From Spirochaetaceae bacterium (lineage in GTDB: Bacteria > Spirochaetota > Spirochaetia > DSM-27196 > SKKC01), in the NCBI GenBank assembly GCA_007694005.1, contig RECN01000076.1:1-64000 (forward strand): a stretch of DNA of 64,000 nucleotides. The letters are read 5' to 3'. Positions 29,152 through 35,557 of this stretch are shown here, piece after piece. How positions within the stretch are numbered: position 1 is the first letter of the stretch; the number at the start of each line of letters is the position of its first letter. The position numbers and the translations under genes were made by a program. The notes beneath the pieces were generated by a model. The model was not told the origin of the DNA. It saw only the letters and a program-made list of their open reading frames with translations, and did no database searches.

Positions 29152-29928
29152 CTAACTGAACTCGCCCGACAGATACTCCTTCGTGCGCGCCTCTTTTGGA
29201 TTGCTGAAGACCTGCTCCGTCGGTGACAACTCGATCAGTTCGCCCACGTAGAAAAACGCCGTGTAGTCGCTGACCCGACTTGCCTGCTGCATGTTGTGGG
29301 TCACGATTATGATCGTTACCTTGTCCTTGAGTTTCTGTATGAGCTCTTCGATGCGGCGAGTTGCCATCGGATCGAGGGAACTCGTCGGTTCGTCCATGAG
29401 CAGCACTTCGGGGTCAACGGCGAGCGCACGCGCAATGCACAGACGCTGCTGCTGCCCTCCGGATAGGCTGCCGCCCGGGCTGCGCAGACGGTCCTTGACC
29501 TCGTCCCAGAGCGCGGCGTCGGTAAGTGACCGTTCCACGACTTCGTCGAGGACCGACTTCTTGCGTGTCCCGACAAGACGAAGGCCTGCTGCGACGTTTT
29601 CGTAGATCGACTTCGTAGGAAACGGCGTGGGTTTCTGGAACACCATGCCGACGCGGCGTCTGACGACGACCGGATCCATGGACGACGCGTACAGGTTCTC
29701 TCCGTCGAGAAAGACCTGCCCGCTTACGTCTATGTCGGCCCCGAGATCGTGCATGCGGTTCAGCGCCCTCAGAAAGGTTGACTTCCCGCATCCGGAGGGC
29801 CCGATAAGCGCGGTCACGTGCTTGTCGTATACCTGCGCACTGACGTTCTGCACACCGGTCGTGACGCCGTAACGAACCGTGAGGTCCTTCGTTTCTAGCC
29901 GTATTGATTCTTGTGTTGAAGTTTCCAT
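29152..29928 (-). CDS. pstB: Phosphate ABC transporter ATP-binding protein
   Basis: 258 residues from 29928, where AAGGGAAA precedes METSTQES; an ATG further upstream lies in pstA and is rejected. Walker [10 protein letters not shown], signature [15 protein letters not shown], Walker [14 protein letters not shown] and the switch His are all present. It energises phosphate uptake by PstC/PstA. It follows pstA by ten bases. No phoU follows: the operon simply ends here. Confidence 0.95.
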
Positions 29929-29938
29929 TTCGTTTCCC

Positions 29939-30796
29939 TTATCCGCGGAACTGTTTTTCCATGCGATTGATAACAACCCGACCGACGTAAAACGTGATCA
30001 TAACGAAGAGCAGGAGAATGATAGCCGCGCCCCATCCCATCGAATGCCATTGGCGGTACGGGCTGATCGCGAGGCTGTATATGCGCTGCGGGAGCGTATC
30101 CATAGGACGAGTCATGTCAAAGCTCAAAAAATTATTCCCGAGTGAAGTCAGCAGGAGTGGTGCGGCCTCACCTGCAGCCCGCGCAAATGCAATGAGGATT
30201 CCAGTCACCACACCAGCTCTGGCAGCAGGAATCACGAGCGCTGTCGTAACGCGCCACCTCGGGAGTCCCAGAGCGAGTCCTGCCTCCCGAAGGCTCCATG
30301 GTGTGACTCGAAGCACACTCTCGGTCGTCCGGGCAATAATCGGAATCATGACGAAGGCGAGCGCGACCGAGCCCGCAAGCGCGGAAAATCCTCCCGTGTT
30401 CTTGACGACCAGCGCGTATGCGAGCAGACCCATAAGAACCGCCGGCATGCCGTTCAACGTGCTTGTCATAAGTCGCGCAACCGGAGCCAGAGGATGTTCC
30501 TGAAACTCCGACATCATTATTCCGGTTGAGATGCCGAACGGTACCGCCATGCCCAGGGCAACAAGGTCGATGATAACGGTCCCGACGATAGAGTGAACGA
30601 GTCCCGCAGGACGCCCCTGCATGGCCCTGGAAGGACTTCCGAGCTCCTCGGTAAAGAACTCATAGTTCAGCGCTGAAAAGCCGTTGACGACAACGTGAAA
30701 GATAATGAAAAAAAGCGGAACGATTACGACGAGGGTCGCGAGTACGAACATTGCCTCGGCGAAGCGATCTCTGGCGTATCGGGCTCTCAAGGTCAT
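29939..30796 (-). CDS. pstA: Phosphate ABC transporter permease PstA
   Basis: 285 residues, about six membrane helices, with the permease loop [24 protein letters not shown] near 175-198. The ATG overlaps the pstC stop by four bases (ATGA). It pairs with PstC to form the transmembrane channel for phosphate. The sequence looks intact. Confidence 0.94.
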
Positions 30797-31779
30797 ACGA
30801 CCCCCTTTCCCATGCTCAGCTTGCGCTGTATGTAGCTTGCAAACATATTAATGACGATCGTTACGAAGAAGAGATACAGACCGACTGCCATAATGCTTGA
30901 GTAATGCAGCGTTTCAACCGCCTCGCGAAACTCGTTGACGATAAGCGACGGCATGGTCGCAGCGGGTCCAAACAGCGTAAACGGTACCCGGTTTGAGTTT
31001 CCAATGAGCATGGCAACCGCCATGGTCTCCCCGAGTGCGCGTGCGAGCGACAGCAGCAGACCGGCGACTATGCCGGTTCGCGCATAGGGAAGCACCGCCG
31101 TCCGCATAACCTCCCAGCGAGTCGCTCCGAGCGCCCATGCAGCCTCACGCTGTTCGCGGGGAACCTGGCCAATCGCATCTCGTGCCAGGGCGACCGTATA
31201 TGGGACGATCATAAGCGCGAGGATAAGCGTGGCGGTCATGAGGTTGAAAGTGGTCGGAGCGCCGATAATAGGAATGAGCCACTCGGCTTCCTCGATCGCC
31301 CAAACGTAGATCGGGACGTAGATGGCGTCACGGATCTGCGGAGCAAAGTTGAAGATTCCCCAGATCCCGATTACGACACTCGGAATTGCAGCGAGCAAAT
31401 CGATAGTGTAGTTGATGATATTCGCAAGCCACTTTGGGGCGTACTCAGCGACGAATATGGCCACCCCTAACGCAGGCAGCGCCGCGATCGTCAGTGCTGC
31501 AAAGCTCGTTATGAGCGTTCCGATTATGAACGGGAGTGCACCGTGGATACGCGCAACAGGATCCCAGGTCGTCTAGGTCAGGAATGAACCGATGCCGAAT
31601 GCCTGGAAAGTCGGCCTTGCTTCGAGGTAAATTACTATTGCCATCGCCGCCGCCAGCAGGATAATTCCGCTTGCGAGCCCCGTCACGACCACGCGAAACA
31701 CACTATCGCCGGGGCCACGATACCGCGCCGGTATCTGCGCCGCGACAGCTCTTCCGGGACTTTCAGACACATCGCTCAT
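30793..31779 (-). pseudogene. pstC: Phosphate ABC transporter permease PstC interrupted by an in-frame amber codon
   Basis: Read through one TAG at 31573-31575 (codon 69), the frame gives a normal-length PstC of about 328 residues. Before the stop comes the first membrane helix and FGIGSFLT; after it TTWDPVARIHGALPF continues without a shift, exactly as in intact family members. A single base change from a sense codon such as TCG explains it. The amber is not a general recoding, because several genes here, including araA and the GH42 gene, end in TAG. Translation could restart at a GTG (31464), giving a product lacking the first helices. It may be a true lesion, a suppressed codon or a sequencing error. 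Confidence 0.85.
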
Positions 31780-31830
31780 TGATTCCTCCAGTGCTTCAAG
31801 GCCTATATAAACGAACCACGGTCATATACG

Positions 31831-31858
31831 TGTTAGGATTGGGTTAGATTTCTGTTAG
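31831..31858. promoter_or_regulatory. Pho-box-like array upstream of pstC
   Basis: Three hexamers at exact 11-bp steps: TGTTAG (31831), GGTTAG (31842), TGTTAG (31853). Direct repeats with 11-bp period are the hallmark of PhoB/PhoP binding sites. It lies between the pstS terminator and pstC. Confidence 0.65.
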
Positions 31859-31871
31859 GACAGAACGACCG

Positions 31872-31900
31872 AAAAAAGGACCGCGCTATAAGCGCGGCCC
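31872..31900 (-). terminator. Rho-independent terminator after pstS
   Basis: On the minus strand a GC-rich stem (CCGCGCT paired with AGCGCGG, three-base loop, extended by outer GG/CC) is followed by six T residues. It lies about 45 bp after the pstS stop and should reduce read-through into pstCAB. Confidence 0.85.
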
Positions 31901-31942
31901 TGTTCCCGAATCCGGCACACGTGGTGCCTGAACAGTATTGAC

Positions 31943-33076
31943 TTAGAAACCGTTGGCGCGTACGTCGGCGATTACCGATTCGCCGATGTTCTCGCCTTCC
32001 CAGTTGAGAAGACTGATCATCTCTTCGGCGACTGCCTGAGCGTCGTCCGGGAGACGGGCAAAACTCAGACTTTCGTTTATGTCCTGGCCGTCGGTCACGA
32101 TCCAGTAGAGAAAGCGCGTCAGCTCGACTGCCTGATTCCGGCTCTCGATGGCCTGGTTCCGGTCAAGGTTTTCGTACACGAGCGCCCAGGCAATGCCTGC
32201 GATTGGATAGCCTTGGGCCGCGTCGGTGTCGGTCAGAAGGACACGTCCATCCAACGGGATTTCGACGGCTGCGGCGAGGCTTGTAGCCTGCAGCGAGGGC
32301 TCAATGGTGTTTCCCGAGTTATTGATGACGCTACCGAACGAAATATCGTTCAGGACCGCGTAGACCAGACTGTTATATCCGAGCGCTCCGGGAGTCGACT
32401 GGACAATCCCTGCCACACCTTCGTTTCCGTTACCGCCACTCCCGGTCGGCCAGTTCACCGAACTTCCGAATCCTATGCGATCTGCCCAATCGGGACTAAC
32501 CTTTGTAAGATAGTTTGTGAAAATGTTCGTCGTACCCGATCCGTCAGACCGATGCGCAATCTGTATCGGAAGATTCGGGAGGTTCACATCCGGGTTTAAG
32601 GCCTGTATCGCGGGATCGTTCCAGCGGGTGATCTCTCCAAGAAACGCCCCGGCAATCGTATCCGGATTAAAGACAAGCCCACTGTCGACACCGGGAATGT
32701 TGTACGTCAAAACGACGTCGCCGAGCGTCAACGGCATGTTGAAGGCGAGTCCTCCGGTGTTGTCCCGTGCAAGCGCCATGTTGTCGTCACTCAAGTACGC
32801 TTCGGTCGCGCCGAACATGACGGTCTGTTCCATGAACTGGCGCACACCGCCACCCGAGCCGATAGACTGATAGTTAATGGTAACGGCTCCGCCGGTAACA
32901 TCCCGGTACTCGTCCGCCCAGGCAGTAATTAGTGGTGCGGGAAAAGATGCTCCTGCGCCAAGAAGCTCAGCTCGTGCCCGGCCGCTCGCGGGCGCTCCCG
33001 GAGTACCGCTTTCCTGTCCGCCGCCGGCGAACATAAATGCCGCAGTGAATACCATGACTGCGAGAACCGCAATCAT
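31943..33076 (-). CDS. pstS: Phosphate-binding protein PstS (start probably frameshifted)
   Basis: From the in-frame ATG at 33076 the protein has about 377 residues: a hydrophobic signal lacking basic residues, cleavage before GGGQESG, then the PstS fold with LLGAGASFPAPL, SDGSGTTNIFTNYL and the late SFARLP segment. The best Shine-Dalgarno (AGGAGG) is followed seven bases later by an ATG at 33094 in another frame, which reads MNRTMG and stops. A one-base indel between 33077 and 33092 would join the two and restore a normal basic signal N-region. Reading from a GTG at 33124 would run over the Shine-Dalgarno. PstS captures phosphate for the PstCAB channel. Confidence 0.85.
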   Translation of the reverse strand: MIAVLAVMVFTAAFMFAGGGQESGTPGAPASGRARAELLGAGASFPAPLITAWADEYRDVTGGAVTINYQSIGSGGGVRQFMEQTVMFGATEAYLSDDNMALARDNTGGLAFNMPLTLGDVVLTYNIPGVDSGLVFNPDTIAGAFLGEITRWNDPAIQALNPDVNLPNLPIQIAHRSDGSGTTNIFTNYLTKVSPDWADRIGFGSSVNWPTGSGGNGNEGVAGIVQSTPGALGYNSLVYAVLNDISFGSVINNSGNTIEPSLQATSLAAAVEIPLDGRVLLTDTDAAQGYPIAGIAWALVYENLDRNQAIESRNQAVELTRFLYWIVTDGQDINESLSFARLPDDAQAVAEEMISLLNWEGENIGESVIADVRANGF

Positions 33077-33149
33077 CCCATTGTCCGATTCATACTCGAA
33101 CCTCCTGTTATATCGTTCACGCACGCAAAAGTTCGCGCGTGATGGCGGG

Positions 33150-33193
33150 ACTGTACCAGTTGTATTGTTAGAAACCCGTGAGTGAGACGTGAG
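33150..33193 (-). promoter_or_regulatory. Pho-box-like array and -10 box upstream of pstS
   Basis: Hexamers TGTTAG (33166), CGTGAG (33177) and CGTGAG (33188) stand at exact 11-bp steps. On the minus strand they read CTCACG, CTCACG, CTAACA. A -10-like TACAGT (33150-33155) follows ten bases after the last repeat, the spacing used by PhoB-activated promoters. The array could also serve the divergent gene at 33248. Confidence 0.7.
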
Positions 33194-33247
33194 ACTTCCG
33201 TTTAAGCGATACGCGGACTCCGTCTACATGCTACACTCGCGCTCGTG

Positions 33248-33898
33248 ATGAAGGCCCGTTTCAATCTGGACGGTATCCATGAGTCCCTGACACAGTTCTG
33301 CACTGAGTTTGAGGCTATCAACGACAGGCTCGCGATGCGACGTGAGACGTTCACGGGGCAGATGGCTGAACAGATCGTCGAAGCCTACGGCTATCTGAAC
33401 GGTCTGCTTGACCAGAACATGGACCTCTTTACCCCGGCCGGACTGCACGGGCTCCTGGAACTGAACCACATTGTGCTGTGCGGAACCGACGCCGACAATA
33501 GAACTCACTACTACACGCATCTGGAAGAGACCCGAAAGAGCTTCATTTCGCGCATTAAGCCGATCAAGGACTGGGTGCTGAAGAAGCGAAACGAGAGCAA
33601 TCCCTATCAGCTTGCTACCGGGTTTTACTCGCGGCAGCTCAGTCGACCGCAACTCTTTCTCGAGGGTAACCACCGCACCGGGAACATCGTCCTGAACTAC
33701 CTGCTCATCAGCAAAGGATCGGCACCCTACGTTGTCTCAGCTGAAGACGCCCATACCTACCTGGATATATCAGGAGATATCAAGTTTACGGATAATGGAA
33801 ACTATCTCGATACCGCACTACGCATGCCCGGCCATCGAAAACGCTTCAAGGCATTCCTGAAAGAGCGGGTCGACGAACGTTATCTGGAGCACCGGTAG
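33248..33898 (+). CDS. Fic-like protein with degenerate motif
   Basis: 216 residues, mostly helical, no signal. Residues 135-146 read QLFLEGNHRTGN, which aligns with the Fic signature HxFx(D/E)GNGRxxR. The catalytic His is Gln135, the GNGR glycine is His142 and the last Arg is Asn146. Canonical AMP transfer is therefore unlikely; another phospho-transfer role or a binding role is possible. It lies 18 bp before a Na/Pi-type transporter gene and shares its upstream region with pstS, hinting at phosphate-linked regulation. The start could also be the GTG one codon earlier. Confidence 0.6.
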   Translation: MKARFNLDGIHESLTQFCTEFEAINDRLAMRRETFTGQMAEQIVEAYGYLNGLLDQNMDLFTPAGLHGLLELNHIVLCGTDADNRTHYYTHLEETRKSFISRIKPIKDWVLKKRNESNPYQLATGFYSRQLSRPQLFLEGNHRTGNIVLNYLLISKGSAPYVVSAEDAHTYLDISGDIKFTDNGNYLDTALRMPGHRKRFKAFLKERVDERYLEHR

Positions 33899-33916
33899 GA
33901 CCGGTCGAGGTACGCT

Positions 33917-35557
33917 ATGACACAGCTAACAGCCTGGATTGCCCCCTTCGCCGGTGTGGCCCTGTTCATACTCGGACTGAGACAGATTACCGCGGCGAGC
34001 ATGGGGCGCGTCGCGATCCGCAGTTTTCCGACCCTGCGTGATCGCCAGGGCTCCGGAAACGCGCGCCTGCGCGCGGGAATGCGCATAGCCTCGGGCGGTT
34101 CAGCAGGTGCAGCCGCTTCTGCTGTGATATCGTTTGTCGACGCCGGCGAACTCCCTGGTCCGCGCAGCACACAGGCGCTCGCCGGTGTGCATCTCGGTTC
34201 ATTGCTCGCAGCAGTCCTCGCCGCCTCGATCGGCCCCGCTGTTTCGACCCTGCTGCCTGCATTCCTCATGCTGCTCGTCGCCCTTCCTGCCCGGCAGTAC
34301 GGAGCAGCCGGGCAGAGTTCCCGCAACGATATTATTACCGGAACTGCTTTCCTGCTCCTGGGCATGGACATCGCATTTCATTCAGGACCGGAACTCACAC
34401 AGGCACTTCCGGTAAACGCTCTGCCCGCGTTCGCGATCTCGCCGGTCGCGGCCATCGCCGCCGGCATCGCCATCGCGGCTTTGTTTCGGTCCGCAACCGG
34501 AACTACCGTCCTCGCGACTGCGCTTCTTGCGACCGGCATGGTACCTTCGACTGCGGCTGTACTTCTGGCGCTGGCAGGTATCCCGGGAGCAGGCATCGCG
34601 TTCCACCTTTCCACAACCCGACTCAGCCGCAGGGCCCGCGTTGCGTCGATGACCTTTTTTCTGCTCGGAGTATTAAGCGGACTCTTCGGTCTCATTGCCT
34701 GGGGCGCGTTGAACCTTGTTTCCGCCATACCGCCGGTTCCCGGCCTGGTAGCCGTCATGCTGCCGGTGGCGGCAGTCTTCACCGGGCATGTGTTCTCCGC
34801 GGTTGTCGCACTCTCTGCGCCGGCACTCCTGCACCGCCTCGCGGACCGGCTCGTATCGGAAGATCCCGAGGCGAGCGACACTCAAAGCGATGCCGACAGC
34901 CTGCATCTGCTTAAAGCACCGCTCCCCGAGACGCTCGACGCGAATCTTGCGATTACGCGCGCAGCCCTCGGTAACATGGCGCAGACCGCCTACGAGATGC
35001 TCATGATCGTCATCAACATCTCGCAGCTTTCCGACGAGGCCGACAACGCGATCGAACGAATCATTGCGCTCAGGCAGGCGAATCACACACGCGGGGAGCA
35101 GATCTCATCATCCCTTACCAGAAGCGCCCAGCTTCGCTGCACAAACGCGCAGGCAGATGAGATCCGACGCCAGCAGCAGATTGCCGGGGAGTTAAGCCTG
35201 ATCGGCGACGACTGCTACAAGGCCTCGCGCATGATGGTGCGCAGCTATCGAAAAAACTACACGGTGCACAAGCAGAGCGCGGACGAACTCTTTGCCTACA
35301 CGTCCCACATCCTTGATTTCCTGCGCTACATCAGCGACACCCTGGGCGGTCGGATTACGCCCGATGACCCGACGATTGCAGCCGAGATGGAGCAGAACAT
35401 CGACCGTCAACGCGACAAGCTCAAGAAGCGTGCGCGAAAAGCGCTTCAGAAGAATCCGGATGCCGACGTAAAAGGAGAACTCGCGTTCATAGACGTCGTC
35501 TCGTATCTCGAACACGTGGCAGATCGCTGTAATGCAATCGCCGAACTAGTGCGATAG
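33917..35557 (+). CDS. Na/Pi cotransporter-family protein with PhoU-like C-terminus
   Basis: 546 residues. About eight to ten hydrophobic helices fill 1-310, arranged as two related halves, and a helical PhoU-like domain occupies about 340-546. This is the bacterial NptA/YjbB layout. The QSSSAT signature expected in each half is not visible: the corresponding places read GSAGAAASA (~62) and FRSATGTT (~192). Ion or substrate specificity may thus differ from known phosphate/sodium cotransporters. It is probably cotranscribed with the Fic-like gene and lies next to pstS. Confidence 0.75.
   Translation: MTQLTAWIAPFAGVALFILGLRQITAASMGRVAIRSFPTLRDRQGSGNARLRAGMRIASGGSAGAAASAVISFVDAGELPGPRSTQALAGVHLGSLLAAVLAASIGPAVSTLLPAFLMLLVALPARQYGAAGQSSRNDIITGTAFLLLGMDIAFHSGPELTQALPVNALPAFAISPVAAIAAGIAIAALFRSATGTTVLATALLATGMVPSTAAVLLALAGIPGAGIAFHLSTTRLSRRARVASMTFFLLGVLSGLFGLIAWGALNLVSAIPPVPGLVAVMLPVAAVFTGHVFSAVVALSAPALLHRLADRLVSEDPEASDTQSDADSLHLLKAPLPETLDANLAITRAALGNMAQTAYEMLMIVINISQLSDEADNAIERIIALRQANHTRGEQISSSLTRSAQLRCTNAQADEIRRQQQIAGELSLIGDDCYKASRMMVRSYRKNYTVHKQSADELFAYTSHILDFLRYISDTLGGRITPDDPTIAAEMEQNIDRQRDKLKKRARKALQKNPDADVKGELAFIDVVSYLEHVADRCNAIAELVR

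Follow-up and report, generated by a model that had tools for sequence, protein, structure and literature searches.

The pst locus and its two hexamer arrays

The window, meaning the whole 64,000-nucleotide stretch of DNA analyzed in this study, lies on contig C88 of a 3.9-Mb assembly of 204 contigs. It harbors the genes pstS, pstC, pstA, and pstB, all on the minus strand, together with repeated hexamers upstream of pstS and pstC and two genes on the opposite strand. The features considered here are as follows, with repeats written in the direction of pst transcription.

29152..29976, minus strand: pstB (TIGR00972, 377 bits, cut-off 343)
29939..30796, minus strand: pstA (TIGR00974, 245 bits, cut-off 193)
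30793..31779, minus strand: pstC, whose codon 69 is an in-frame TAG (TIGR02138, cut-off 196; the part downstream scores 219 bits)
31804..31809, minus strand: putative -10-like TATATA of pstC, read from the sequence ten bases past a degenerate fourth repeat, on which it hinges
31820..31825, minus strand: possible fourth repeat of the pstC array (ATGACC), degenerate, in 11-bp phase at the downstream end, with a weak match to the unit profile
31831..31858, minus strand: predicted Pho box of pstC, three strong repeats CTAACA-N5-CTAACC-N5-CTAACA, matching the triple pattern
31877..31901, minus strand: intrinsic terminator lying between pstS and the pstC array, an 11-pair stem with a T tail
31943..33124, minus strand: pstS (TIGR00975, 328.7 bits, cut-off 205), ORF start uncertain
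33150..33155, minus strand: -10-like TACAGT of pstS, read from the sequence ten bases past the last repeat CTAACA (33171-33166)
33166..33193, minus strand: predicted Pho box of pstS, three repeats CTCACG-N5-CTCACG-N5-CTAACA, from the sequence and from relatives
33199..33204, minus strand: possible fourth repeat of the pstS array (TAAACG), degenerate, in phase at the upstream end, with a weak positive unit score
33245..33898, plus strand: divergent gene whose conserved product is Fic-like but has neither the catalytic His nor a Pfam family
33917..35557, plus strand: gene for a Na+/Pi-cotransporter-like protein (NptA) that carries a PhoU domain at its C-terminal end (PF01895 passes its cut-off, PF02690 falls short)

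On the plus strand, the hexamers start at 31831 (TGTTAG), 31842 (GGTTAG), and 31853 (TGTTAG) before pstC, and at 33166 (TGTTAG), 33177 (CGTGAG), and 33188 (CGTGAG) before pstS. The initial annotation had described three hexamers at exact 11-bp steps before each gene; we confirmed these positions, and none of 100 Markov-simulated windows contained an 11-bp triplet. Four pairs of GT[TG]AG at lag 11 were found on the plus strand of the 64-kb window, where a first-order Markov model predicted 0.31, and every other lag from 7 to 40 gave at most one pair except the harmonic 22, which occurred twice. Because the pst units sit on the minus strand, the arrays are read with transcription as CTAACA, CTAACC, and CTCACG units. 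The earlier comparison of plus-strand TGTTAG with the TGTCA of E. coli had therefore been made the wrong way round. The place and orientation of the pstS array are kept in relatives, most of which have four repeats there as a rule.

The stretch of 53 nt around the terminator folds with a minimum free energy of -28.4 kcal/mol (z -5.3). This terminator stands between pstS and the pstC array and accounts for the presence of two arrays: pstS is probably transcribed separately from pstCAB, and each unit would need a box of its own.

The pst genes show signs of disruption. Codon 69 of pstC is TAG in this genome and open in four relatives. At the start of pstS (33060-33124, minus strand), the ATG after AGGAGG opens a short out-of-frame peptide. 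The long frame has to begin either at a GTG farther upstream or at an ATG farther downstream, which points to a possible frameshift in the signal-peptide region. The operon of this genome may thus have suffered damage or been mis-assembled, with assembly error and real decay fitting both irregularities alike. The in-frame TAG, the broken-looking start of pstS, and the lack of pst matches in two sampled congeners (see below) would all fit repeats with no regulatory role, whether chance occurrences or the remnant of a decaying operon. Such an origin is nevertheless extremely improbable in our judgment, given the exact 11-bp phase and single orientation of the repeats, and their occurrence at corresponding positions in many genomes whose pst genes are intact.

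Recurrence of the arrays in relatives and in the same genome

The named relatives of the window PstS are metagenome assemblies of Spirochaetaceae or Spirochaetales. A search of 46 genomes from the order with the pattern YTMAC-N6-YTMAC-N6-YTMAC gave 35 matches, compared with three for a reversed-pattern control. The matches were collapsed by hand to 29 distinct places, 20 of which precede pstS, PstS-like, pstC, or phoU genes. Of the other order-level triples, some precede genes for UDP-glucose dehydrogenase, an extracellular solute-binding protein, or an ABC ATPase, and the rest have no clear phosphate link. In 118 relatives, quadruple arrays were found 11 times (none in the control), and a class-wide search for CTMAC triples extended the finding to additional families, with triples before phoB, phoU, pstB, pstC, and PstS-like genes. 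The check that had been named at the outset, namely a search for such arrays before the phosphate genes of relatives, was thereby answered in the affirmative within both the order and the class.

The orientation of the repeats is equally consistent. In spirochaete upstream regions, lag-11 YTMAC pairs on the gene strand numbered 18 for pstS (24 regions), 18 for pstC (23 regions), and 15 for phoU (30 regions), whereas the opposite strand gave one, none, and none, respectively (51 vs 1 in total). The unit profile derived from 41 arrays reads (C/T)T(A/C)AC, with positions 8-9 rich in A. Beyond the phylum, CTAACA or TTAACA doublets precede pstS in Delongbacteria, Cloacimonadota, Chitinispirillum, and a deltaproteobacterial assembly.

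Some matches were of other kinds. Those in genomes G093, G181, and G032 (of the CTCACCTACAA, CTCACTTTTTG, and CTCACTTCGCG types, respectively) have no phosphate gene downstream; they are probably simple tandem repeats and were rejected as Pho boxes. Separately, a UDP-glucose dehydrogenase gene (L212:129-1590, G025:C87) has a triple array upstream, and it is possibly a cell-surface-polymer target of the phosphate regulon.

The genome of the window was itself searched by two-half-site patterns, which yielded 41 doublets. Profile scores, based on a profile learned from the arrays of relatives, were obtained only for the 30 matches with fetched loci. Among these scored doublets, the best were those of pstC (24.6 and 22.3 bits), followed by that of phoU (21.4 bits) on contig C195. 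The pstS pair scored 15.7 bits and was exceeded by two intergenic doublets for which no phosphate gene was identified (L019, 17.9 bits; L004, 17.7 bits), as well as by two that overlap ORFs (L020, 17.4 bits; L006, 16.7 bits). The doublet before phoU is a third copy of CTAACA-N5-CTAACA (CTAACAGAATCCTAACA), located at C195:4436-4452, with 33 nt between it and the phoU gene of a phoU-phoB-phoR operon. In addition, a CTCACA-N5-CTAACA doublet was found 39 bases before the ATG of a calcineurin-like phosphoesterase gene (L028:1501-2670, G000:C148), which is a plausible candidate for a further regulon member.

The initial annotation had also placed a -10 box ten bases after the pstS array, and this held on the minus strand, where CTAACA is followed by ten bases and TACAGT. 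The phoU box on C195 likewise has a -10-like TACGGT ten bases past its last repeat. For pstC, no TANNNT occurs ten bases after the third strong repeat, and one is present only when the degenerate fourth repeat is counted. Across 34 arrays, TANNNT lies 9, 10, or 11 bases beyond the last repeat in three, five, and three cases (11 of 34), which is more often than at any other three adjacent offsets. This spacing is consistent with the published PhoB layout (PMC1906773) and supports it without proving it.

The probable regulator and related Pho boxes

The C195 operon encodes a PhoU (195 bits, cut-off 130), a kinase that scores 403 bits against the cut-off of 400 for PnpS, a PhoR-type kinase, and a response regulator that is the best match to TIGR02154 in the genome, at 244.7 bits and thus below the curated cut-off of 296.2. 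We assigned this regulator as PhoB partly on the basis of its operon context. The genome encodes about eight full-length OmpR-type regulators, and the solved full-length structures closest by sequence are RegX3 and MtrA. Together with the score of the PhoB candidate under its cut-off, this leaves a small chance that a different member of the OmpR/PhoB family, for example a RegX3- or MtrA-like protein, binds the arrays and happens to control pst. We regard this as very unlikely; the same box stands before phoU-phoB(-phoR) here and in relatives, which is the usual sign of autoregulation, and the C195 protein remains the best PhoB match, with PhoU and PnpS/PhoR-type kinase neighbors that pass their models.

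The arrays are direct repeats of 11-bp period in a fixed orientation, with phosphate genes downstream in relatives, in a genome that encodes phoU-phoB-phoR. These results indicate that both arrays are very probably Pho boxes of a phosphate-starvation switch in this soda-lake-type spirochaete, at which the regulator would bind and through which the genes would respond to phosphate. Pho boxes had been the initial reading, and it is still the best one, given the same array before phosphate genes in relatives and the phoU-phoB-phoR operon here. At low phosphate, the PhoR-type kinase would phosphorylate the PhoB-type response regulator, which would then bind head-to-tail on the 11-bp-phased half-sites (C/T)T(A/C)AC-N6, standing in for a -35 element, and recruit RNA polymerase to the -10 box about ten bases downstream. 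Activation of this kind, dependent on phosphorylation and exerted by the C195 PhoB, would co-induce the binding protein and the membrane transporter from separate pstS and pstCAB boxes in amounts that may differ, and through the box before phoU-phoB-phoR the regulator would act back on its own expression.

Published Pho boxes consist of direct repeats that differ in sequence from species to species, such as CTGTCAT in E. coli and GTTCACC in Streptomyces (PMC4415409). The SphR box of Synechocystis (CTTAACCT) consists of at least three tandem 8-bp repeats with 3-bp linkers, and the Pho boxes of E. coli lie 10 bp upstream of the -10 (PMC1906773). The spirochaete arrays resemble the cyanobacterial SphR box in their direct repeats of 11-bp period, their TTAAC core, and the presence of at least three repeats before pst genes (PMC1906773), but their unit is mostly CTAACA or CTCACG without a conserved T at position 8, and the arrays before phoU-phoB often have just two repeats. 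They also share TTCAC-like core repeats, as in CTCACG, before phosphate genes with the Streptomyces PhoP box (GTTCACC; PMC4415409), although the spirochaete units prefer CTAAC to TTCAC. As in the E. coli PhoB box, which has its -10 about ten bases downstream (PMC4415409, PMC1906773), 11-bp head-to-tail repeats would replace the -35, and some of the spirochaete arrays have a -10-like sequence at this spacing; pst and phoB-phoR would be targets in both regulons. The core, however, is CTAACA rather than CTGTCA, and Arg201 of PhoB (PMC3973317) is replaced by Gly or Ala in spirochaetes.

A box of the E. coli type was sought in 77 spirochaete upstream regions, and the pair TGTCA-N6-TGTCA was present in none. 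The proposal that the consensus, about (T/C)GT(T/G)AG, differs from the E. coli core thus stood, whereas its distinctiveness did not: once the arrays were read with transcription, they proved to be of the known TTAAC/TTCAC type, and the idea of a novel consensus was dropped. By its letters, the spirochaete box appears nearest to the cyanobacterial and Gram-positive forms of this type. The PhoP box of Bacillus subtilis, with repeats of TT[A/C/T]ACA, has nearly the same hexamer and the same 11-bp period in a different phylum.

The recognition helix of the regulator differs from that of E. coli. The set of spirochaete PhoB homologues located beside phoU or pst genes had 37 rows, six of which were the same gene fetched twice, leaving 31 distinct proteins from the class; these share the motif R(S/A)VDVQ(I/V)L(G/A)LR(K/R)(K/R)L. 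At the position aligned to Arg201 of E. coli PhoB (RTVDVHIRRLRKAL), they have Gly, with Ala in one. In the E. coli PhoB-DNA complex, Arg201 makes a specific hydrogen bond to a guanine (PMC3973317), and the G of CTGTCA has no counterpart in the spirochaete half-site CTAACA. This correspondence suggests that the loss of Arg201 may be tied to the loss of G from the half-site.

Possible origin of the pst operon and a probable phosphate-regulon signal for Spirochaetia

The window PstS shares 65% identity with the PstS copies in its own family (G004 and G006) and 78-84% with those of several other families. No pstC or TIGR00975 PstS was found in two sampled congeners, one of which is only 76% complete. 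The Fic-like protein is 68-75% identical in six other spirochaetes, where its gene follows pstB in the pst operon, an arrangement seen in relatives from other families, and the Na+/Pi-cotransporter-like gene follows the Fic-like gene in relatives as well. The order in other families is pstS-pstC-pstA-pstB-Fic-like-NptA on one strand; G004 of the own family and two genomes of family f7 have pstSCAB-phoU-phoB-phoR instead. A profile search with the Fic-like protein retrieved a FICD homologue (E 0.0018). The protein reads LFLEGNHRTGN where the Fic motif would stand, and its predicted structure is of low confidence (mean pLDDT 54).

Mis-binning was considered as the source of the pst operon and looks unlikely, since aroA on the same contig is nearest to the own family (69%, compared with at most 62% elsewhere). 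In its simplest reading, based on identities rather than on a tree, the operon (29152-35557) possibly came by transfer from a different family of spirochaetes, and the Fic-like and NptA genes stand inverted relative to the order in such families.

Pho boxes of the TTAAC/TTCAC type are an already known and ordinary device, and it is their description in spirochaetes that is new as far as the literature was searched: in literature that took in few subscription journals, no paper was found whose title or abstract dealt with a Pho box or Pho regulon in spirochaetes or Leptospira. We propose, tentatively and as somewhat less than an even chance, that Spirochaetia, along with some other phyla such as Delongbacteria, might form a separate specificity class of Pho boxes, CTAACA-N5-CTAACA, read in spirochaetes by a PhoB helix RSVDVQILGLR without the guanine-reading Arg201, so that protein and box would have changed together. 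With box and helix common to the families, phosphate control would extend immediately to a pst operon acquired from a different family, which may be what occurred here. The arrays provide a concrete and scannable phosphate-regulon signal for Spirochaetia, with targets that recur across families, and they offer a protein-DNA pairing open to test, in which the loss of Arg201 from the recognition helix would be set against the loss of G from the half-site.
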